64,000 nucleotides of DNA from Tetrapyrgos nigripes. Lineage: Eukaryota > Basidiomycota > Agaricomycetes > Agaricales > Campanellaceae. A program made the position numbers and the translations under genes. Shown here piece after piece: positions 3,390-33,676 of the stretch (within the stretch, counting starts at the first letter, position 1; the number at the start of each line of letters is the position of its first letter). The notes below the pieces were generated by a model. The model saw only the letters and a program-made list of their open reading frames with translations. It did no database searches and had not been told where the DNA came from. The stretch is taken from positions 620,001 to 684,000 of the forward strand of contig JAACJM010000001.1 of the NCBI GenBank assembly GCA_013368315.1, in the 5' to 3' direction.

Positions 3390-4464
3390 TTACATGCTTT
3401 TCTGCCCACTAGCTATAACAAATTTTGCACCAGAAGCATAAAGCCATTCCATCATCCATCCAAACACTCTCCAACCAAAACCCCTTCCTTTCAAGAAGGC
3501 CACAAATCCAGGAAACACATCCTCGCTTATATCCTCCACGATTACATCAACGAAACCAATCTTTTCCAGCTGCTCGATATACCGTGGCACTGCAATCCCA
3601 TTCGCTTCAGGCATGACTGCAAACACCGAGAACATGAGCAACCTTTTCCATCCTTCCAATTTGGCTGCATCCAGACAAATATCCGCAAGAGCAATCCTCC
3701 CTCCTGGTGCGAGATGCTCAAATGACTGTCGTAAAAAGAGATCTCGCGTCTTGAAATGATAGGCACAGTCCAAAGCTAGTATCGCGTCGAAAGTTGCATG
3801 GGAGTTTGGATCCAATGGGTGCCTGACAGCACCTGAACGGTAAACGGCATCTCCTTCGTATAGATTAATTTCGGTGTCCTTGGGGACTTTGATTTGGGAC
3901 AATCGTTCTAGAGAACGGTTGTGGTGTGTTGTGAGACTGGTTATACCCGTCAAGCTCGATATTAGATTAACAGACGGGTTCGAGAGTAAGAAAATCAGAG
4001 ATTCGCCAGTACCATGACCGACGTCTGCGTCTCATGTCAGTAAATTTGGACTGAGAAGACATGAGAAAAACAAACCTAGAACTCTAGCACCGTGCTTGAT
4101 TTGAGCGGCTTGGATCAGTTTCTTGGCCAGCGCTACAAGTGAGCAGATTTTTTTTTTTCATTCCAAAGCGTTCATTGTAGCAAAGCGCTGCTAACCTTGA
4201 CAAGCATCAGGAAAAGTGGTTACATCCTAGAGCTAATGAGGGATATTCTGGTGAAGCTTTCACAAGTAGATTCACCTTCCAGAACCCCATATTTAACCAC
4301 TCAGTTTTTGGAAGTTCTCGTGGATCGTCATTGGGAAGTCTGTTGAGGGACAGATGGAAAAGTCCATAGGGGTCGGAAGATTTACGAGGCCAAAGCAACC
4401 AGAAAGTAACCATTACAAAGCCAGGAACAAGTAGTTGAATGAAGATAGATAGAGCCATAAGCAT
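3390..4464 (-). CDS. Membrane-anchored class I SAM-dependent methyltransferase, copy 2 (intact)
   Basis: Start at 4464 (MLMALSIFIQLLVPGFVM), stop TAA at 3390, four exons, about 290 residues. Residues 1-25 form one hydrophobic anchor. Then come a basic WPRKSSDPYGLFH turn and the NMGFWK..TFPDACQALAKKLI entry helix. The SAM-binding motif I is VLDVGHGTGES. Motif II lies around FDAILALDCAYHFKTRD, and HLAPGGRIALADIC is the motif III region of Methyltransf_11/25-type enzymes. The C-terminal EDISEDVFPGFVAFLKG helix is family-like. Substrate unknown; the anchor suggests a membrane lipid or other hydrophobic acceptor (inference). It lies directly downstream of the START-like gene on the same strand, 79 bp from its stop, and joins it in frame once the 52-nt intron 4492-4543 is removed. 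Confidence 0.78.
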
Positions 4465-11835: not shown

Positions 11836-13409
<1,574 letters not shown>

Positions 13410-19150: not shown

Positions 19151-20438
19151 TCATAGTAAGAAATCTCCGTTTGTCTCCTTCAACAAGAGTTTGTACTCAG
19201 GTTGGAACTGCATATGATTAGCCGTGAGTTTGAATTACTGCACTTCTCAAACAGATTAAGACTCACGTTAACATAGACGTTCTCCCACCACTGAATTGTT
19301 CTTGCAGTGAACTCAGCGTCCTCCTTTGAGATAATCGTCTTAGGGATCCCATTTGCCGCCGCCGCCTCAGCTAATAGCTGAACTTTGCATTGTCGGTCGA
19401 GAGCAGCGAACAGGTAAACGGCTTCGTCGACAGTGTTGCCCACTAGAAAGCCAGGTTAGAACATTCCTCCTTGAGTCCGATCCTCCATACTTACGAGTAA
19501 GAAGTCCGTGATTCTGCAGAATACACGTCTTTGATTTAGGTCCAAGAGCTACGGCAATATTTTCTCCCTCCTCCTGGGCAAGGACTATCCCACCGAAATT
19601 ATTATATACTGCCAGATTGTCGTGGAAGAGACAGGAATCCTGAGTCAAGATATCAATAGGTCGGCCGAATGCGGACCAAGCCTTGCCATGAAGGGAATGA
19701 CAGTGGGCGGCCGCATGGACATCCGGTCGGGCTTTGTGAATTGCGGAGTCTGTCAAAATAAGCAATGAGATAAGCACGCTCACAGCAGTTATCAGACCTT
19801 ACGAATGTAGAAACCCGCCGTGTTGATAGGGAGTTGTGCGCCGTGGGGCGACACATAACCGTCTGGGCCAACGAGAACGAGCATGGATTTCTGTATAAGA
19901 TAATGAGCAAAACCAAGATTATGTCGAGTTGGAGACGCTCACCGTAATGGTAGAGAAATGTTCCGCAAACGGATTCATCCTGCGTAAGGTTTGCTCAAAT
20001 ATAGACGACGATTAACGAGAACGAAGACCAACCAATAATGGTCAGGAAGAACAGGATCGCGTACAGCTAGCCCAATAGTCAGCCGCAACGTATTCGCCGA
20101 CACGCACCGAAATACTTACTGATATGTCCAGACACTCCCTCACCGTAACCGAGCTTTCCCCAATAGCGGAACGCTGCAGCCATATGTTCCTTAGAAATGT
20201 CTATCAACAGGCCGAACTCCATCGGCAAGCGGAACTGACTTTGATCCATTCACGCTCTTCATAGGGGCTGTCGAACTTGGGGACAGTGGCGAGTTCAATG
20301 GTACCTATTATGCAGTCATCAGAGACTTGTATGCATTGGGATTCACTTTCATGTACCTTGTTTGTTTCCCCGCCAGGTGCGGCGGAGAGGGTTTTCCGCC
20401 AGACCGTTGAGAGTTTGATGGTAAGTAGTGCCGTTCAT
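19151..20438 (-). CDS. Class II aldolase/adducin-family protein
   Basis: Start 20438 (MNGTTYHQTLNGLAENPLRR), stop TGA 19151, about 290 residues in at least eight exons. The fold markers are FRYWGKLGYGEGVSGH, a GPDGYVSPHGAQLP loop, RPDVHAAAHCHSLHGKAW (zinc-binding His-x-His, part of the fuculose-1-phosphate aldolase/adducin site), LQNHGLLT with another His ligand, and VDEAVYLFAALDRQCKVQLL. Metal ligands appear intact, so it is probably catalytic, cleaving or isomerising a hydroxy-carbonyl compound. The exact substrate cannot be read from sequence. It is divergent from the NCS1 permease (327 bp between starts), which suggests joint control. Confidence 0.85.
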
Positions 20439-20765: not shown

Positions 20766-23102
20766 ATGGCTTCTAGACTGCTCGAGTCAATCCGCATTCA
20801 TGATCAAGAGGCTGAGCACGAGGAGGCACGAGACGGAGAGATCATCAAGGCGACTCCGGATCTTCTGCCAGTACCCGATGGCCCTCGTCGCCAATGGGGA
20901 GCTTGGCATTTGGCAGGTTACTGGATTGCCGAGGCCTTTGGTTCGTAGTCTTTACACTGTCGAAAGCATATGAGTTGATTATCACCTCTTGTATTGCAGG
21001 CATCAGGTAAATTGCTTTTGTGGTCGTTGTACTTTCGATCTCCTTACCCTGACTTCTAGTCAGTACCAAGTTGCTTCAGCAGCTGTGGCTGGAGGCCTGA
21101 GTCCAGGATCCACCATTGGAGCGGTCTTTCTGGGCCATGTCCTCGTTTGTGAGTCAACTTCCTCTGGAGCATACTTTTGTTGGCTGACACGACTTCCAGC
21201 CATTGCTTGTGCTTTGAATGGTTGGACTGGAGCTGTCTATGGGTTCAACTTTCCTGTGTATGCTCGAGCGTCGTTCGGTATAAGAGGAACCTCGATTGCA
21301 GTGATTTGCCGTGCAGTTGCAGCCATCATCTGGTGTAAGTTTTCTATTGCTATCACGAAGGTCATTTTTTAATTATTATCGTATATAGTTGGTACGCAGA
21401 CTTATCAAGGAGGCCAATGCGTTCAAGTGATGCTTGGAGCCATCTGGCCTTCCTTCAAATCTTTTCGCAACCATTTACCTGCATCCGCCCATGTCACGTC
21501 ATCTGAACTGCTATGTTTCTTGTGAGTGTTGATTTCAATCGATTCTGGGCCCTTTCTTAATGAAATGAGAAGCATCTTTTACATCATTCAGCTACCTCTG
21601 TTGTGGATACATATCTCCAAGCTTCGTTACCTGTTTATGATCAAGGTCGTTTTGATGCCTATCTTTGGGTTTACTCTTTGTGAGTGGTTTTTGTCACTTG
21701 ACGCTACTGGCTTTGACCATTTGAACGTTAGTTGGATGGGCTGTTGGTAGAGCTCACGGCTTTGGCCCTATATTCAGTCAGGGTACCAACACGACGACTT
21801 CCCCTTCTGCAGGTAAGTTGTTCTTCTCCTCCTCAGCTCGGTTCCTGACGTTGACGGTCACCCCCAATCCGCTACTCCTCTCCTTCTCCAGTTCTGTTTT
21901 TCTCTGCCATGACTTCGGCCATTGCACCTAAAGCGACGCTTGCGCTTAATATCTCTGTGAATACTTGGCCTACTTGTCTCCCTGCAAGTCTTCTCACTTG
22001 ATTTGTCGATTAGGACTTCACCCGTTATGCAAAGAGCCCAAGAACTGTGGTATGGACGAACATCTTCTCCTTATCCATACCAGTAACTCTTTGCGCGTTC
22101 GTGGACAAATGCTCCTTTATTTCTTTGCGACTCATATTCACGATATCAACAGTATCCTTGGTGTTGTGGTCACCTCCGCCGTCCAAATCATCTACGGTCA
22201 GACCACATGGAACCCTCTTCAAGTCGCAAGTTTGTGGGAAAGCAGAGCTGCTCAATTCTTCGCTGCTTTCTGCTGGTCACTTGCTGTGATTGCTACGAAC
22301 ATTTCCGCAAAGTAAGTGCTTTCCCTTGTTCAACATATTTTCGTTAAATGACTTGAGTTAAGCTCTACTGCTGTTGGTAACGACCTTGCCATTCTTTTCC
22401 CTCAATACATCAACATTCGTCGGGGTCAATATATATGTGCCATCCTCGGCGTCGCTACATGTCCCGTATGTTCTAGTATTTGCCTGGCATTTTTGCGCAT
22501 AAGCTGATGTCTCGGTATAGTGGATCATACAGAATTCTGCTGTCTCCTTCACCTCATTCTTAGGCGGTTACAGCATCTTCCTAGGACCTGTAGCTGGTGT
22601 TATGCTGGCCGACAATGTAAGCTCTGGCAATCTTGTCTTCGACATTTGTCTTACTTGCTAATTTCCTACAGTTTATCCTGCGTCGAGGGAAACTTGAACT
22701 TGCCCAACTATACTGGAAAGGTACCGGAGATTATTGGTATACTGCCGGCTTCAATTGGCGAGCGATTATGGCGTTTTCTCTTGCCCTTGTCCCCAACCTC
22801 CCGGGATTCGCCCAGAAAGTAAACTCAAGTCTCAATGTTCCTGTCGGAGCGACTTATCTTTTGTAAGTGCTCATTCGTTACTTCAATCGTGTGACTACAT
22901 ATTCACGCTGTGCCTTGGGCCCAATTTCAGCTCGGTTGTATGGCCACTGGGTCTTGTAGTAGCTGGGGGGATTTATTTGTTGCTCAACTTAATCTCTCCA
23001 CCTCAAATCACGGTGCGAAACTGTAGTGGCCAAAGAACATCAAGTCCAACGGATAGTAATACTATGGATGAGAAAAAGGATCCCTCAGTAATTGGCGTTT
23101 AA
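20766..23102 (+). CDS. NCS1-family (Fur-type) nucleobase/hydantoin permease
   Basis: Start 20766 (MASRLLESIRIHDQE), stop 23102, about 12 exons, about 520 residues with roughly 12 hydrophobic helices. NCS1 hallmarks are present: RRQWGAWHLAGYWIAEAFGISQ (helix 1), NGWTGAVYGFNFPVYARASFG, WFGTQTYQGGQ, the SALTLNISDFTR-like block (read here as KATLALNISDFTRYAK), ATNISANSTAVGND and FTSFLGGYSIFLGPVAGVMLAD. Fur-type members carry uracil, allantoin, hydantoin-like rings or thiamine by H+ symport at the plasma membrane. The frame needs a 7-nt micro-exon (21000-21006). Its place beside hydantoinase and D-carbamoylase genes points to a cyclic ureide as substrate (inference). Confidence 0.92.
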
Positions 23103-23770
23103 TTTTACTGGGCGTTGGTCATTTTACCGTAGGGAGTCCTTCAAGAATCCCGCCTGTAATTCGATGTGGAGATGTATAATATAGGAATTGAAGTGAGTCC
23201 GAACGAACGAACGTTGAATCGTAGTCTTGCGTTTCGCTTCATCTTGAAACGCTGAAGTGACGAGATGAATTGCATTCACACCCAGCACTAACCAATATTC
23301 ATTGACCAAAAGTTAGTTCGGGAAGGTCAAGTTTTCGAGGGACCAGGAAACTCATTTGGAAACGAAAGGTTTTCGTGCTTCAGAAATTTATCGGAAGCGG
23401 ATCCGAGCCAATCGGATCGCTTGCCGAGGCTTCGGAAATTTAAAGTTTTCGAATCCGTTTTCGAGCACCAGAGATTTGATGTTTCCTAATTAACTTCTGG
23501 CCACGGAATATTGGTTACTGCTGGGTGTGATTGCCTAGCATTCCCTATCATGATGACCAGCAGGAACCCTTGCTCCACCATCGATTATTACTGACCTGAA
23601 CGGTGCAGATGAGTTACCAAGCCCGAATGAAATACAACTTGTGATGTACACGACGGCGATAACCAACGTTCAAGGCGCTGAAATGAGATTTCTCCTTGTT
23701 AGATTGAATGGTAAAGATAACAGCCTCTCGTAGCAAATGCCCTACGCCTCAGACGGCCATCAAATTGTTT
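23103..23770. other. Convergent intergenic region with an imperfect palindrome
   Basis: No coding signal. At 23396-23421 lies an imperfect inverted repeat (AGCGGATCCGA, five-base spacer, TCGGATCGCT). It is flanked by two near-copies of GCTTCRGAAATTTA (about 23377 and 23430). Several GTTTTCG words occur around it. It could be a worn miniature transposon or a hairpin in the 3' region of the permease. Confidence 0.4.
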
Positions 23771-25184
23771 CTATATTACTTCCGGTGGCTCAACGACTCC
23801 AGCACGTTCTACGATTACACCGTAATGTTCCGGTCGTCTATGCTTCTCAAATGCAAATGTGCGTGCCTTGCCCTGCCTGAAAACGAAGATCAGTACTCAG
23901 ACCGTCCCAACTTATCAGAGCCAGAAGGCTTACAGGCAAGCATCCAAATCGATATCGGCGACAACGAGTTCGTCGCCGTCGGTCTTGTTTTCCGCAATGA
24001 TGTGGCCCTCTGGATCGACTACCATACTTCCAGTGATCAGCTCAAATTTACCATCATCCCAGCCACAACGCGCTGCAGTGATGCAGAACACTAATAAATG
24101 GCCATAGATAAGCAAGAACACGCTGACGGAAGCGATAAAGCAGACTGACTCGCATTGGTATACGCATGAGCTTGACACACGAGTTTGTGATGGAACTTGG
24201 GATCCATGAGCAGATATATCATGGACGAGAACGCTTGACTGCTTACCAAGGCATCTTGACGAGCAAAATCTCGGTCCATGTTAGGATCTGCACCCCAAAG
24301 TTCAGGTGCCTTTTGAACAGAGGTTTAAATTTGGTAAACCCGTTGGAGAATTTCTCTCACCCATGCTACGGTGTTCTATAAAAATAACGCAAGCGGAGTC
24401 AGTGAGAGGTCTAAGTTCTGGAGATAGAAGGACTCACATATCCAATGCACATAATCTCAGCACCTTGCAACCCATAACAGCGCCATCCTTCTGCCCATCT
24501 ACGATCATTGCAAATCAGCATACCGATGATAGGAGACTTGACTTCATGCCGCAGACTAGGTGCGCGGAATGCCTGGAAGCCAAGATCCCCAGGTTTGAAG
24601 TATCGTTTCTCGAGTTGATTAGTGGTATCTGGATGATCATTGAAGGGTTCTGTTGGAGCAACGAAAATGTCAACAGATTGAAGCATGGAAAAACGGCACA
24701 ACTGACCAAAGGCGCCGGGTAGATGGACCTTGCAGTAGTTGGAGCAACGAAAAAAAAATGTCAACAGATTGAAGCATGGAAAAATGGCGCAACTGACCTT
24801 GCGGTATTTGCTGACTACTCTTCTTCCGGAGACATAGCTAGCTGTGTTGTAAGGAACCCCGTCAGGAGTCTTCTCTGCATACCCTACCACCACATCGATT
24901 CCTAGCTGGGCAGCCTTATCAAAGAAGGGTTTGACATTTGGAGCGTCGACTATCCCCGTCACAGCATCCTCATTTTCAAAGAATGAATTGAGCTCGACGT
25001 CGTCAGTGATAAGATAACGAGGGAAAAAGGTGGTGAATGTTGTTTCAGGGAAGACAACGAGCTTGACGGCTTGCTTATCTGCTTCTTCGAGCAAGGTGAT
25101 GAGACGGGCAAGAACAGAAGCTCGAGGTTCGCTGCGGTCGACTCTGCCTACCTGGGCAGCTGCAACGCGGAGGGGGCGAGGCAT
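23771..25184 (-). CDS. Nitrilase-superfamily N-carbamoyl-D-amino-acid amidohydrolase (D-carbamoylase) -like
   Basis: Start 25184 (MPRPLRVAAAQVGRVDRSEP), stop TAG 23771, about nine exons, about 325 residues. The nitrilase triad is visible: Glu in LVVFPETTFTTFFPR, Lys in KYRKVHLPG, Cys in LICNDRRWAEG. The blocks FFPR, LEKRYFKPGDLGFQ, ICNDRRW and GLQGAEIMCIGY are those of D-carbamoylases (DCase) more than of beta-ureidopropionase. The C-terminal exons give NTVAWAPELWG, RCGWDDGKFELITGS and FEKHRRPEHYGVIVE. The reaction releases ammonia and carbon dioxide from an N-carbamoyl amino acid. Two neighbouring introns (24650-24706 and 24729-24797) around a 22-nt exon are almost identical. It shares a 216-bp promoter with the hydantoinase gene. 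Confidence 0.85.
24650..24797 (-). repeat. Pair of near-identical introns flanking a 22-nt micro-exon
   Basis: The intron at 24729-24797 (69 nt) and the next one at 24650-24706 (57 nt) share about 50 nt with only about three substitutions. They differ in the length of an A/T tract and at the 3' splice site. The exon between them (24707-24728) encodes VHLPGAF of the conserved KVHLPG-x-x-EPF motif and is not itself repeated. So an intron was copied, rather than an exon-intron block. Confidence 0.92.
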
Positions 25185-25400
25185 TGTGGAAGAGGAAGAG
25201 ATGCCGAATGCAAAATATTCATAGCTAGGTCTCTAGGGGATTTTGTTTGAGATGCTTCGCCGGTGGCTAATGGTCAGTAAACACGATCATCTGACGCCTC
25301 ACTTCAGCTTGGCCGCGGTTTCCGAACTTAAGCTCTCCCAGATAAATCTACGAAATGCGACATTTGCCTTGTTTTCTTTCCCCCTCTCGACCTTACTGCC
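25185..25400. promoter_or_regulatory. Divergent promoter, D-carbamoylase / hydantoinase
   Basis: This 216-bp region separates two start codons of enzymes that act in sequence. It contains CGG-TTT-CCG at 25316-25324, an inverted CGG pair of the kind bound by Zn2Cys6 dimers. There is also an AGATAA GATA-type motif near 25340. A Zn2Cys6 gene lies 2 kb downstream. Binding is inferred, not shown. Confidence 0.45.
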
Positions 25401-27326
25401 ATGTTTCTTGACCTCGATTTGATTGTTCGCAATGCAGTCGTCGTCACCGCTTCAGACCAGTTCCCAACGGACATAGGCGTCAAGAATGGCAAAATCAAAA
25501 TCCTCGCTGCTGGCATTCCGTCGCAAGAGGGATGCCGTGAAATCGACGCTGAAGGCGGGTTTGTCACGCCTGGCGGTGTTGATAGCCATGTCCATATCGC
25601 ACAATCTGCTGCAAAAGGACTGGGAGCGCGTTCTGCCGACGATTGGACGAGTGGCACCAAAAGCGCCCTTGCAGGTCTGTCCCTTCTCTCTCAAAATTAG
25701 GGTTCCATTAACTTCAGGATTGTAGGCGGAACAACCACCATTCTCGCTTTCGCTGTACAAGCACGGGGAACCTCTCTCATAGACGCCGTCAACGAATACC
25801 ACAAGAAATCGGACGATCATTCTGTTTGTGACTATGGCTACCACCTCATTGTCACCGATCCAAACGAAGTCCAAATGCACACAGAGCTTCCCAAGCTTGT
25901 GAAGGAGGGAATATCGTCTATGAAGGTACTTACTTGAACCTCCGATGGCTTCAGTATTTCTTATCCCCATAGGTCTATATGACCTACGTCGATCTTAAGC
26001 TGAATGACGGCGAAATCTTGAACGTTTTGATGGCCGCGCGCAAGTACAAGGTTACGACTATGGTGCACTGTGAAAACGCAGAAGTGTAAGTAATCTCAGA
26101 TCCACTCATCCCCACTCTGGAGCTAATGTTGCATACGTTCCCTTATCAGAATTGACTGGATGACGACAAATCTCCAAGAACGAGGTATGACCGAACCCTG
26201 GCATCATGGAACATCAAGACCACCGATCGTCGAATCGGAAGCGACCAATCGAGCACTAGCACTTGCAGAGCTCATGGATACTCCCATGCTCATTGTTCAC
26301 GTTTCGGCACCCGAGGCTGTCAACATTATTCGACGAGCACAAACTCGTCTTTTACCAATCTATGCCGAGACTTGCCCTCATTACGCGACACTCGACGGAT
26401 CTGAGATGCGGAAAGACGACTTCGAAGGTGCAAAATGTGTCTGTGCACCTCCTCTACGTGACGATCCCAAAGACAAAGAGAGAATATGGGAGGGTCTTTC
26501 AAACGGAACCTTCACCGTTTTTTCCTCTGACCATGCACCAACTTGTTTCGATGATGATCGGGGCAAGAAGGTTAGTCACCGGCCATTCAACCTGTACACG
26601 CGCGCTGAGTCTACGTCAATTGCAGCTTGGTCTGATCAGGAACCCGACGAACAACCCGAGAGGCAATTTCCGGACAATTCCCAACGGCCTTCCTGGTGTC
26701 GAAACTCGGACACCGTTGTTGTGGAGCGAAGGCGTACTGAAAGGCAGGATTACTCCTCAGCGGTTTGTCGAACTGAACTCGACAAATGCAGCCAAGTTGT
26801 GTAAGTTTCCCAGTTGTCACAACTTTAGCAACACCGTAACTGATCTAGATTCTGCAGATGGAATGTACCCTCAAAGTAGATTGTCTTTCTTAGTAAGCTC
26901 TCGCCGCGCACCGTAGCTGACTTATTTACAGAGGGAACCATACAACCCGGCAGTGACGCAGACCTTATTATATGGAGACCCGGACACAAACGCAGCCAGT
27001 ATAAGATTGAGAACTCCAAGGTAAGCCCAAATTTTATTCGTGCAGGGGTGTCTTCTGAAGAGTCTTGTCAGTTGCATCATGCCTGCGACTACACACCGTA
27101 TGAGGGTATGATGCTTGAGGACTGGCCACGATATACGATTCTGCGAGGCCAAGTTGTGTATGATGGCGAAACGAACGAAGTCTTAGCCCAGCCAGGGTCG
27201 GGAAAATTCCTTCAGAGAGGATCGAGCACTCTTCCGTAAGTTTTTGATTTCTGGGACGGACGATAGTCTGACTGGTATAACAGAGGTCCTCGCAATCAGT
27301 GGTTATCTGAGTGGCGGCCAGAGTGA
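25401..27326 (+). CDS. Hydantoinase / dihydropyrimidinase (cyclic amidohydrolase)
   Basis: Start 25401 (MFLDLDLIVRNAVVVTASD), stop TGA 27324-27326, about nine exons, about 520 residues. Metal ligands are in place: HxH in GGVDSHVHIAQ, the carbamylated Lys in SSMKVYMTYVD, His in TTMVHCENAEV, His in YAETCPHYATLD, Asp in VFSSDHAPTCF. Tyr of VYMTY and the NGLPGVETRTPLLWSEGV block fit the D-hydantoinase/DHPase group. The intron after GKK removes a stretch that otherwise shifts the frame and joins LGLIRNPTNNPRGNFRT. It hydrolyses the ring of dihydrouracil or 5-substituted hydantoins to N-carbamoyl acids. The adjoining D-carbamoylase-like gene favours hydantoins, but reductive uracil breakdown remains possible. 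Confidence 0.93.
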
Positions 27327-27447
27327 TCTAAGCACCTACTTATCATTAGATGTATACAGTATAACGTAGAGCCTAGAAGTGAATTGCCGTAGTTGGAAAT
27401 GTGATCTGCGAATGCACGTGCGGTGAAGAAGTTGCTCGTATCTAGTC

Positions 27448-30149
27448 ATGTCGGACCTTTCGACTGGCGAACCAGTTCTCGATCAGCCAGCCCCGACTCT
27501 GGCACGACCCTTCCGGTCGAGAAAAAACAGACCTTGCGACGGTTGCGTGAGCAAACATTACTCTTCTCAAACTTTCATGTGTATGACTCAATTGCCTTGG
27601 TCCATTAGCGAAGAGCAAAAACACGTTGCGCTATTACTGAAGTTGGGACACCATGTGTCGAGTGCCAGTGAGTGCCTTAGTTTATTGACCGACTTCTTTC
27701 TGAGACCACCAGGCATACGCGCAAAAAATGTACATTTGACGAACAACCCCAAGAACGCAAGAGACCAGTTAAACGATCGCTTTCCCCTCAGCAAGACTTG
27801 ACCATTGACACCTCCAGTATCAATGCATACAAACGTTCTCGTGGCAACAGTATCCCAGTCACTACACCTACTATCCAAGAATTGACGCGTTCAGACGGCG
27901 TTGCCCTGGAAGAAACACGCGGATATCATGTCGTTACTGCTGTCCTTACCGATGATCTATTGCCCGTAGGAGCGCGCAAAGCCGGATGTGAGTGGCTATC
28001 ACCACTAGCTTTGTGTACCATCCTCTTATACCAATCCAAAACAGCACAAGGCGATGAGCACATACGGCAGATTTCCATGGACGTATCAAAACCTCAGTAT
28101 GTGATTTTCAGTAAAATTTCTGACAGTACGTTCAGTCCAATTTGATCTTGGTATTCGCCTGACTTAGATCATAGAACCACGTACACGGACAGATCCTCTC
28201 CTTGGTATCAAGTCTGCATTGTCTCTGTTGCAACCTCCTCCCCATTCTCGAGCTCTAGTCAATGTATACATAACCACCAGTAACGCTGCCTTTCCTATAT
28301 TACCACCGCCAAGTCATGTATTTTCCAGCACGCAGTCGCCGCGTTCATCCTCCTTTGTCTACACACCAGATTCATCCTACCCGTTACCTCTCATCCCCAA
28401 AATTCTGATTTCTGCCCTAAATCATGCTCCCAGGGGAATGTACCGACAATCGGTGAGGAATGTCAGAAAGGTTGCCCAAACTGGCCAGGAAATGATTGGT
28501 GTGTCTTGTCAATTCTCATGTTCGCAGACATTCGCTTGACGTCTTGTATCTGTGTAGACTCAGGCTTGCCCCGTAGCAGCCTGTCAAGTATATCAGACGC
28601 TTTGCTTGATATCTCAGCACGACCTCCAGGAAACGCCGAAGACTGTTATGTGTTACTGGCCAAAGTACGTGCTAGCGTAACCCTAGCTGGACATGTCCAC
28701 TCAATAAGGAGAAGACTATAGCTCAAGCTCAGCTACTTGGTTTACATATAGACCCTACTAATTGGGGTATTCCGTCCTGGGAAAAGGATTTCCGTCGAGT
28801 GCTCTGGTGGGCTTTGAGAGTGCATGATGGCTGGTAGGTGTATCCTTCTCGTCGATACTGGGTATTGACCTTGTCCGATTTCTCAGGGCATCGTTCTTGA
28901 ACTCTCGACCTTCTCACATTCAAAACAATAACCACTCGGTACCTTTGCCAACGGTCCTTAACATATTGGGTGCAACTCAGATACATCACATCGATTCATC
29001 CTCTGTCACGCACCATTCTCCTGCTTCGAGTTCTCAGCATACTGCGCCAAGCCTCCTGAACCTAAATACATCCCAAGTCGAAAGGTCTCCGGTTCAAACT
29101 CAGAATACAGGGACATCTTTGCAGGTGCATGCTGCAGCAACATTTTTGCATCTTTGCCGCCTCGCGATATTTGTCTCAAGGCTACAAACCCAAGTCTGTA
29201 CGCTTATGACCCCGAGGGAAGAGAGACTGGGTCGGGTAATGGATATTGAGAAAGAGATGGAAGAACTTTTGCAGGATGCTCGTGAACTTGAAGCAGATGG
29301 GGGTGGAAACGCACCGGGGTTTGGTAAGCTTTTTATACCAACTTGAGGACAAAAATTTACTCAAGCAATGCCACGGCAGCGTCTCTTATGACATGCATCC
29401 TTGGTTTTCGGTGTATGATCCGTCGAATAGCCATCGAGTTGAGTATAGGTTTAGGCAGTCCGTGAGTGTGATCATTACGCATTCTCGATATTTGTCCTAG
29501 CTTGTCTATTTCGAAAGGTTCACGCCAGATCCTGAAACACTTGAACGATACTTGCAAGCTGTTGACTACATATCGTCCTTAGATGGCTCTGCTTTTGATG
29601 ACTTTTGGCTTGTCCGTGAGTGATGCAATCGTTGTACTCATGACTGGCACTGACGGCTTTCCAGATGTAGGCCACATACTTTCTTCGGTCACATCCTCTC
29701 TCATTCGACTGAGCTTGGCCACAAGTAATGGAAGGTCTCCTGAATCACCAGTCTCCTCGCCATCAGGTCCACATAATTTCTTGCAAGTAGACGCCCGGAC
29801 AAATCCCATTTTTCTTCTATGCCGTTTAAGACATGCTTTACAGAACGCATACGAGTTTCATCATTGGGACATGGCTACCCCCGCCCTAGCGAGAGCAGAC
29901 AATGTCGCAGCATGTCTCCAAAATATCGATGCAGAATATGAGACTGTTGTCAGGGCTCTCAAAGGCACACTGTTCGCCCAATCCTTATCTGCTAGCAATG
30001 CAGCTCCGGCCAATCTGAACGGCAATTTTAATGCCAACTGGAACATTGATCTAGATGTATTTGGAACAGGCCTGGATTGGACTGGATTCCAGAATATCGA
30101 AGGGATGTTTGGTTTGTCTCCCGAACTGGGCGGTTTCACCTCCAATTAA
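27448..30149 (+). CDS. Zn2Cys6 transcription factor, likely pathway regulator
   Basis: Start 27448 (MSDLSTGEPVLDQPAP), stop 30149, at least ten exons, roughly 700 residues. After splicing, a perfect zinc cluster appears at about residues 31-58: CDGCRRAKTRC, then CVEC and KKC (C-x2-C-x6-C-x8-C-x2-C-x6-C). A basic KRPVKRSLS linker follows. The middle region has the fungal-specific transcription factor signature (DFRRVLWWALRVHDGW, ASFLNSRPSHI). The acidic/Asn-rich C-terminus (NLNGNFNANWNIDLD) could activate transcription. It sits between the hydantoinase and the D-amino-acid oxidase, 121 bp from the first stop, so local control of this block is likely. A GATA-type motif lies at 27339-27344 upstream. 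Confidence 0.88.
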
Positions 30150-30402
30150 GCGCGTAAGATTATGATGTATTTCTGTTGTACTTGCATATGTACGATGTAG
30201 GCAGCATATACGATGTTTGTATAATCGACTTGATATACATAGCTCGTCAGAGTCGATGGCCATCTAGGTAAGATTGACAGCGGTGAAATTCGCCATGGCT
30301 AACTAGCGCTAACTAGTACTTACACCCGTATCCCTCGGCCAATGCGGACCTGGAGTGGGGTCCTTTAAATCTCTTTCTATTTTCTTCACTGCATCTCTCG
30401 AG

Positions 30403-31606
30403 ATGTCTTCTCGTCCTGTTCTAGTCTGTGGTTTTGGCGTTATCGGTTTGACGAGCGCTATTCGCCTTTTACAAGGTGGTTACAAGGTCATCGTAGTAGC
30501 TGAACATCTTCCTGGGGATCCTCTGACTGCTATCTACGCCTCAACTGCTGCTGGTGCACACCATCTTTCCTTTGCTGCAGACGACGATGCTCGTCAGCAA
30601 GCTCTTGATAGGAGGACGTTTGACTTGATGTGGGAGGAGGAACGCACTGAAGGAGAAGCAAGTGCCTTAATGAAGCTACGACAAGTCGAATACTACGCAA
30701 CTGAAGGAGAAACACATCTCAAATTCTATGAATCCATGCCAGACGTTGGTGTTCTTTCTACTTGATAGTTTTTTTGTGTCACTGACATCGGCTCTCCTGA
30801 AGTTCCGTGTCCACTCCAAAGACGAACTCAAACCCTTTGCTACACATACAGTATCGTTCACGTCGCTGACCATGGACACTACACCATATCTGCACAAGCT
30901 GGTTAAAATCTTCAACAACCTTGGGGGAACCGTACATCGTAAATCGCTCAATTCGCTACGTGATGCGCTCGAGTTTGAGCAGGAGCCATTTGCGATTGTC
31001 AATTGCAGTGGGCTTGGCTCTCTCAAGCTTGGAGATGTCATGGACGCGGAGATGTTCCCTGTTCGTGGACAGGTGGTTGTTCTTAACGCACCCTGGGTGA
31101 AAGAAGGACGAACCAGGCAGGTGGGTAACTTGGCGGGAGGTGAAGGCGGTGAGAGGACGTATATTATACCTCGACGCAGTGGTCAGGTCATAATAGGTGG
31201 TACCAGAGAATACAATGATTGGTGCGTGTGGAATGCTTCAAAATACCATTCTGTTCGGTGTTATCATCCTGACCTGCTTGGTAGGAACGCAGAACCTGTC
31301 CCAGAGACGTCGCTTGACATCAAGAGACGAGCGCTAGAGATTTTCCCTGAATTAGTGCCGCCAGAGTCACAACTAGAACGTCCTCCTGTTCCTGAAGACC
31401 TGAACTCCATCGTCATCCGAGAAGTTGTTGGCTTCCGTCCGGCGAGGAAGAGTGGCTTACGACTTGAGAGGGGTCACGATTTAGATGTCGAAGGGCGATT
31501 GATTACTGTGGTTCATAATTATGGACATGCAGGTGCTGGTTGGCAATCATGCTGGGGATGTGCTGAAGAGGTAGTCGCTATCTTAGCCAAGGTTGACAGC
31601 ACGTAG
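30403..31606 (+). CDS. D-amino-acid oxidase-family FAD oxidase
   Basis: Start 30403 (MSSRPVLVCGFGVIGLTSAI), three exons, stop 31606, about 360 residues. The N-terminal dinucleotide-binding motif is GFGVIG. HHLSFAADDD, VRGQVVVLNAPW, TYIIPRRSGQVIIGGT, VVGFRPARKSGLRLE (with the Arg that binds the substrate carboxylate) and NYGHAGAGWQSCWG are family blocks of DAAO/DASPO. It oxidises a D-amino acid to the imino acid with hydrogen peroxide as by-product. The C-terminus AKVDST has no SKL-type signal, although most fungal DAAOs are peroxisomal. Placed next to hydantoinase and D-carbamoylase genes, it would handle their D-amino acid product. Confidence 0.9.

Positions 31607-31860: not shown

Positions 31861-33676
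<1,816 letters not shown>

Follow-up and report, generated by a model that had tools for sequence, protein, structure and literature searches.

In bacteria, D-type hyu clusters encode a D-hydantoinase and a D-carbamoylase, sometimes together with a hydantoin racemase, and D-carbamoylases keep the catalytic residues Glu47, Lys127, and Cys172 as well as the recognition residues His129, His144, Arg175, Arg176, and His215 (PMC3546935; articles are cited here by PMC number). For fungi, dihydrouracil oxidases and dihydropyrimidinases have been reported (PMC9585004), and the role of racemases that fungi acquired from bacteria is described as unknown (PMC5169069). In the literature searched, the CC0, CC BY, and CC BY-SA subset of PMC only, no description of a fungal hydantoinase–carbamoylase cluster was recognised. 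Here we analyse a five-gene cluster of this kind from Tetrapyrgos nigripes, located in a window of 64,000 nucleotides (assembly GCA_013368315.1, contig JAACJM010000001.1, positions 620,001 to 684,000) to which all coordinates refer. We consider it likely that this is a conserved basidiomycete catabolic cluster, which would draw nitrogen from D-configured 5-substituted hydantoins and N-carbamoyl-D-amino acids.

The genes encode, in this order, an NCS1-family permease, a nitrilase (hereafter also called the carbamoylase), a hydantoinase, a Zn2Cys6 regulator, and an oxidase of the flavin adenine dinucleotide (FAD) type, with the regulator placed between hydantoinase and oxidase. A preliminary description of this DNA had listed the five genes as neighbours and the nitrilase and hydantoinase genes as diverging from one 216-bp promoter region; spliced models confirm the adjacency, and the gap between the two start codons has exactly this length. 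The models follow GT-AG splicing and are complete for permease, nitrilase, hydantoinase, and oxidase:

20766..23102, + strand: NCS1-family permease, 14 exons, 532 residues, without internal stop
23771..25184, − strand: D-carbamoylase-type nitrilase, 8 exons, 335 residues
25185..25400, no strand: divergent intergenic region between the carbamoylase and hydantoinase start codons, 216 bp
25401..27326, + strand: hydantoinase/dihydropyrimidinase, 9 exons, 498 residues
27448..30149, + strand: Zn2Cys6 transcription factor, the model covering the first two introns
30403..31606, + strand: FAD oxidase grouping with D-aspartate oxidases, 3 exons, 360 residues

The hydantoinase and oxidase models are identical to the T. 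nigripes database proteins P0121 and P0241, respectively. The nitrilase model is colinear without gaps over its full length with a Guyanagaster protein (P0001, 85% identity), and no protein named for Tetrapyrgos is present among the 120 listed carbamoylase homologues. Six-frame searches show that carbamoylase and hydantoinase are each encoded once in the genome, along with two remote hydantoinase matches (28% identity), one of which resembles an allantoinase by eye. A Pfam scan of unspliced exon fragments returned no domain for 4 of 10.

In the proposed pathway, the permease would import the ureide, and the metal-dependent hydantoinase would open the ring to give an N-carbamoyl-D-amino acid, from which the nitrilase, with its Cys-Glu-Lys residues, would free CO2 and NH3. 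From the D-amino acid, the oxidase would produce a 2-oxo acid, NH3, and H2O2 by deamination. Both ring nitrogens of a 5-substituted hydantoin would leave as ammonium, the nitrilase and the oxidase releasing one each. The Zn2Cys6 protein probably regulates the gene set. For an acidic side chain, the route would lead from hydantoin-5-acetate or a related ring through N-carbamoyl-D-aspartate and D-aspartate to oxaloacetate. We infer these activities, the D-configuration and acidic side chain of the intermediates, the direction of flux, uptake, and the regulation or co-regulation of the genes.

The linkage of the enzyme genes was compiled by hand from tables of the best 120 homologues each of carbamoylase, hydantoinase, and oxidase, which print gene numbers and contig sizes, the size being that of the longest contig printed per 90% protein cluster. 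The counts omit organisms with only one of the genes among the best 120 rows, and also pairs across strains or assemblies (Rhodotorula toruloides carbamoylase, Sporobolomyces pararoseus carbamoylase, R. kratochvilovae hydantoinase, and R. graminis). Of 18 comparable genomes, 16 have linked carbamoylase and oxidase genes, nine of them, from four genera, with gene-number gaps of 1 to 3. Carbamoylase and hydantoinase genes are linked in 9/10 other genomes (four by gene number), and hydantoinase and oxidase genes in 13/16 genomes including T. nigripes (five by gene number), where Rhodosporidiobolus nylandii was scored as unlinked with two assemblies mixed. Linked examples are:

Coniferiporia weirii: M0805_008964/008965
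Rhodosporidiobolus poonsookiae: JCM10207_002950, 002954, 002955
Kwoniella pini: I206_104455/104452
T. nigripes: D9758_000237/000239

Synteny in relatives, which had been set beforehand as a test, is thereby found as linkage in three basidiomycete classes, Agaricomycetes, Tremellomycetes, and Microbotryomycetes. Several details weigh against the favoured reading as a conserved cluster. Seven of the carbamoylase–oxidase links rest on a same-sized contig alone (two below 80 kb, two above 1 Mb), and the counts cover the three enzyme genes, with permease and regulator outside them. The oxidase gene is on a different contig from that of the carbamoylase in Meredithblackwellia, and from those of carbamoylase and hydantoinase in Kwoniella shivajii, while in Pseudohyphozyma the hydantoinase gene is separated in this way from both other enzymes; for Armillaria, no oxidase is named among the 120 listed rows, though carbamoylase and hydantoinase are present. 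The three displaced genes are what a chance adjacency of unrelated genes would predict, whereas the short gene-number gaps in nine genomes of four genera are not. Because the linkage is kept in other fungi, the adjacency is not due to chance, an explanation that we reject on these counts and to which we assign a negligible probability. Since the enzyme genes are co-located in distantly related basidiomycetes, the cluster seems to represent an old pathway for scavenging nitrogen, possibly from compounds that resemble D-aspartate.

The nitrilase had been described as similar to bacterial D-carbamoylases and not to beta-ureidopropionase, and this stands at the level of the family. Its 11 top PDB matches are D-carbamoylases with scores of 213–228 bits, the highest for the Agrobacterium enzyme, and the next match scores 59 bits; the only listed chain named as a beta-ureidopropionase reaches 58 bits, and on this comparison with one such chain a beta-ureidopropionase identity was rejected. 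By these scores, the nitrilase is a relative of the D-carbamoylases, and the outcome that the preliminary description had named as refuting, a grouping with beta-ureidopropionases, is not seen. The blocks FFPR, LEKRYFKPGDLGF, and ICNDRRW, which the preliminary description had pointed out, are present in the model, and the T. nigripes enzyme has Glu47, Lys129, Glu150, and Cys183. The catalytic Glu47, Lys129, and Cys183 are retained in 20/20 chosen basidiomycete and 10/10 chosen ascomycete rows. Four of the five recognition residues are conserved in T. nigripes: the counterparts of His129, Arg175, and Arg176 are kept in all 30 chosen fungal carbamoylases, and that of His215 in 19 of 20 basidiomycete and 8 of 10 ascomycete rows. 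The fifth, His144, is replaced by Gln148, and the known D-carbamoylase recognition set is therefore incomplete, which refines the earlier assignment and is a point against the favoured reading.

This replacement is widespread. Glutamine occupies the position in 20/20 basidiomycete, 10/10 ascomycete, and 13/13 of the bacterial rows linked to an ErtD-like gene (see below), and in 119 of all 120 listed homologues, the remaining one, Neolentinus P0042, having histidine. Histidine is found in 11/11 rows of the hydantoinase-linked group that contains the D-carbamoylase of PDB code 1erz. Pro199 is changed in 28 of the 30 fungal rows and in all 13 ErtD-linked bacterial rows. In the carbamoylase tree, the bacterial rows, chosen by motif, form together with 1erz a single group of 31 (support 100) separate from the fungi, although the outgroup branch is very long and the root unsure; two of the ErtD-linked rows (L031 and L087) may hold a second nitrilase of their locus. 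Median identity to the T. nigripes enzyme, computed from reported match coordinates, differs little between the ErtD-linked (49.8%) and the other bacterial group (47.2%).

A scan of a prokaryote genome collection yielded at least 591 carbamoylase relatives, and the best 80 loci were kept with flanks of up to 8 kb, several contigs being shorter. A hydantoinase-superfamily gene lies near the carbamoylase homologue in 29 of these loci and a racemase-like gene in 19; the 51 loci without a hydantoinase-superfamily gene in the examined flanks count against the favoured reading. Relatives of the fungal oxidase or permease were not found in the 80 loci by tblastn, nor was the oxidase by a hidden Markov model, which does detect the T. 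nigripes paralogues. Ten of the 80 loci have a neighbour with 39% identity or more to the fungal hydantoinase, and all six such neighbours that were scored pass the D-hydantoinase cut-off. Among the 19 loci with a low-identity neighbour, 17 were scored, of which 4 best match a dihydroorotase model and 13 the hydantoin-5-propionate amidohydrolase ErtD. The ErtD matches (451–511 bits) fall under the cut-off of 600, a further point against. All 13 genes are found within 1.9 kb upstream of the carbamoylase homologue and share its strand (loci L029, L031, L032, L036, L050, L058, L071, L073, L080, L084, L086, L087, and L101), an apparent bacterial operon of an ErtD-like gene and a Gln-type carbamoylase homologue that poses its own substrate question.

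With this pairing, and with the reported production of ergothioneine by mushrooms (PMC7653990), the fungal cluster might be thought to serve a late step of histidine or ergothioneine breakdown, from hydantoin-5-propionate through N-carbamoyl-D-glutamate and D-glutamate to 2-oxoglutarate. The fungal hydantoinase is not ErtD-like, however, scoring 227 bits with the ErtD model and 492 bits with the D-hydantoinase model, and we regard such a role as improbable.

The oxidase had been described as a D-amino-acid oxidase. An FAD oxidase is indeed present, but among PDB sequences it matches the D-aspartate oxidase of Vanrija humicola best (326 bits), with D-amino-acid oxidases at 139 and 131 bits. In a tree of 50 rows, made with a quick method and loosely rooted as the outgroup is not one side of any branch, a clade of 41 rows (support 99) unites the Vanrija enzyme with linked oxidases from Agaricales, Hymenochaetales, Microbotryomycetes, and Tremellales. 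The clade also holds a Cryptococcus gattii-complex protein named D-aspartate oxidase, and the agaricomycete D-amino-acid oxidases fall outside it. On these scores and this clade the general D-amino-acid oxidase label was rejected, and by sequence the enzyme belongs to the D-aspartate oxidase clade. Of the Dao proteins of C. gattii, three in number, recombinant Dao1 was the only one with clear oxidation of D-aspartate (PMC4489021). An RNA-seq study of Vanrija grown on D-aspartate exists (PMC10006432). In human D-aspartate oxidase, Arg216, Arg237, Arg278, and Tyr223 line the pocket (PMC8260693), and the aligned T. nigripes residues are Arg219, Arg249, Arg305, and Tyr234. The Arg237 equivalent is arginine in 22 of 23 linked oxidases, a point for the favoured reading, and is lacking in the Vanrija enzyme (ChDDO). 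At the Arg216 position, 18 of the 23 have arginine and two tyrosine, with the pattern not found in three, a point against it, and single arginines thus give mixed signs of an acidic pocket. Seven Pucciniomycotina oxidases that were inspected end in the peroxisomal-type AKL or SKL, and the T. nigripes oxidase does not.

Because of the oxidase clade and the glutamine at the His144 position, the natural substrates are probably acidic. A broader scavenging of neutral and acidic D-hydantoins, as in hyu operons and with the oxidase clade uninformative on the side chain, would agree with the incomplete conservation of Arg219 among linked oxidases and with a bacterial D-carbamoylase that was active on several aliphatic and aromatic substrates (PMC11503299). 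The same oxidase clade, however, includes the characterised Vanrija enzyme and the C. gattii-complex protein of that name, and glutamine at the recognition position is common to the fungal carbamoylases and all 13 ErtD-linked bacterial rows, so that we judge broad scavenging unlikely, if the most serious of the competing explanations.

The hydantoinase passes the TIGR02033 cut-off (492 bits vs 393), and scores 617 bits with the subfamily model PRK13404, under the cut-off of 647. The best PDB match is the Lachancea kluyveri dihydropyrimidinase (436 bits), followed at some distance by the best D-hydantoinase (352 bits). The hydantoinase shares 53% identity with a Ramlibacter protein that bears the name dihydropyrimidinase, 45% with the L. 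kluyveri enzyme, and 41% with the D-hydantoinase 1nfg. A 39-row tree, made with a quick method and with long branches flagged, shows 15 basidiomycete enzymes including that of T. nigripes as one group (support 97); they nest in a 27-row fungal clade with the L. kluyveri enzyme (support 100), with 1nfg placed elsewhere. The binuclear metal site of hydantoinases and dihydropyrimidinases is formed by two histidines, a carbamylated lysine, two further histidines, and an aspartate, and the motifs DSHVHI, SSMKVYMTY, MVHCEN, IVHVS, and SSDHAP align by eye with those of the L. kluyveri structure (PDB code 2fty). The family given in the preliminary description thus holds by score, but the placement in the fungal dihydropyrimidinase clade counts against a hydantoin substrate, and because of it the substrate class is less certain than was stated there.

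The same placement would suit a reductive pyrimidine breakdown, in which a PYD2-type dihydropyrimidinase acts with the nitrilase in the role of a beta-ureidopropionase, and the oxidase takes no part; the best PDB match and the reports of dihydrouracil oxidases and dihydropyrimidinases from fungi cited above point the same way. The nitrilase, however, resembles D-carbamoylases, and beta-alanine would give a D-amino-acid oxidase no function, yet the oxidase gene is linked in 16 of the 18 genomes. In the T. nigripes genome, the bacterial model of dihydropyrimidine dehydrogenase gave a single match of 34 bits, far under the cut-off, and the M20 carbamoylase model none, both searches being weak as they ignore introns. 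We therefore see little chance that pyrimidine breakdown is the function of the cluster, and retain the breakdown of D-hydantoins and N-carbamoyl-D-amino acids as the favoured reading.

The permease scores 381.5 bits with TIGR00800 (ncs1), above the cut-off of 353.1, and its PDB matches are two sequences of the bacterial hydantoin permease Mhp1 at 66 bits. It is a candidate importer of hydantoins or N-carbamoyl compounds, and paralogues are present in the genome. The regulator carries CX2CX6CX8CX2CX6C and matches PF00172 with 24.9 bits (cut-off 21). CCGCGG, CGGTTTCCG, and one AGATAA occur in the 216-bp intergenic region, as single motif matches of low meaning. Between the convergent 3′ ends of the permease and carbamoylase genes lies a dense CGG/CCG stretch (23388–23440).

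No racemase is linked to the cluster, as the preliminary description had noted, but one gene of the Asp/Glu/hydantoin racemase family (PF01177) is present elsewhere in the genome, on another contig. Both PF00795 and PF01177 are annotated in 5 of the 120 listed carbamoylase homologues (P0046, P0050, P0051, P0057, and P0081), a set of ascomycete and unnamed sources in which the named ones are Friedmanniomyces (two) and Colletotrichum; re-scoring of P0046 and P0050 confirmed the two domains. These proteins may be true fusions or merged neighbours, and either would link the two functions. An unrelated P450 domain in the listed homologue P0099 shows that merged gene predictions do occur, and the proteins with a racemase domain could have the same origin.

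Within the carbamoylase gene, introns 2 and 1 (24650–24706 and 24729–24797, − strand) are near-identical (55 of 57 aligned bases) and flank an exon of 22 bp. The pair scores 88, with the runner-up at 22 among 406 intron pairs in four modelled genes, and this looks like a recent intron copying. A dispersed element as the source was rejected, as a DNA search, which skips very common words, found only the window's own copy. To the right, the cluster is bordered by a gene of the EF-1alpha type, and further predicted exons lie to its left:

32103–32796, − strand: EF-1alpha-type gene (PF22594, PF03143, PF03144), probably extending to about 33650
19367–19798, − strand: class II aldolase/adducin-family exon (PF00596), left of the permease
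12632–13204, + strand: exon resembling aspartate aminotransferase by eye (HNPTGIDPT block), lying about 7.5 kb to the left of the permease
877–1488 and 3390–4031, − strand: two closely similar exons resembling a methyltransferase dependent on S-adenosylmethionine (SAM) by eye

Based on the observed gene models, family memberships, catalytic residues, and linkage of the three enzymes, the preliminary reading as a hydantoin cluster is supported and is sharpened towards a D-aspartate-type pathway, whose D-specificity and activity we infer. Kept together in three basidiomycete classes and joined by an oxidase of the D-aspartate type, the cluster places the pathway in a eukaryotic physiology and suggests a specific substrate. 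A bolder proposal, to which we give somewhat less than even weight, is that acidic ureides are the dedicated substrates of an ancient pathway of basidiomycetes. If so, hydantoin-5-acetate (or D-dihydroorotate-like rings) and N-carbamoyl-D-aspartate would be degraded to oxaloacetate, and the Gln148 carbamoylases would constitute an unrecognised enzyme class for N-carbamoyl-D-aspartate or -glutamate. The cluster would further be the place of origin of ChDDO and other basidiomycete D-aspartate oxidases, and it is a candidate for the ancestral setting of such oxidases in fungi. The carbamoylase-joined racemases of ascomycetes would explain part of the fungal Asp/Glu/hydantoin racemases, for which the cluster offers a testable role. 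Carbamoylases with the altered recognition residue could also be tried for the production of acidic D-amino acids.

Compared with known systems, the cluster is a eukaryotic variant of bacterial hyu clusters to which an oxidase has been added and in which the carbamoylase site is altered. As in hyu clusters, homologous hydantoinase and carbamoylase genes are adjacent and the same chemistry is expected, but the fungal genes contain introns, diverge from a shared promoter region, and are accompanied by a Zn2Cys6 protein, an NCS1 permease, and a linked FAD oxidase; His144 of the carbamoylase is replaced by glutamine, and the racemase is unlinked. In L. kluyveri, beta-alanine synthase belongs to the M20 type. 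The T. nigripes hydantoinase is similar to PYD2 of that yeast in fungal clade, sequence identity, and metal-ligand motifs, but its partner carbamoylase is of the nitrilase type. As for the fungal Asp/Glu/hydantoin racemases (PMC5169069), a likeness is seen in the listed proteins that join PF01177 to a D-carbamoylase-type domain, whereas the racemase-family gene of T. nigripes is separate and unlinked. With ChDDO of Vanrija (Cryptococcus) humicola (PDB code 9vpf; PMC8708985, PMC5854778), the cluster oxidases share both the clade and the AGAHHLSF and GGEGGxRTYIIPR-type blocks, and the two differ at Arg249 of the T. nigripes GGTR segment, where ChDDO has a methionine.

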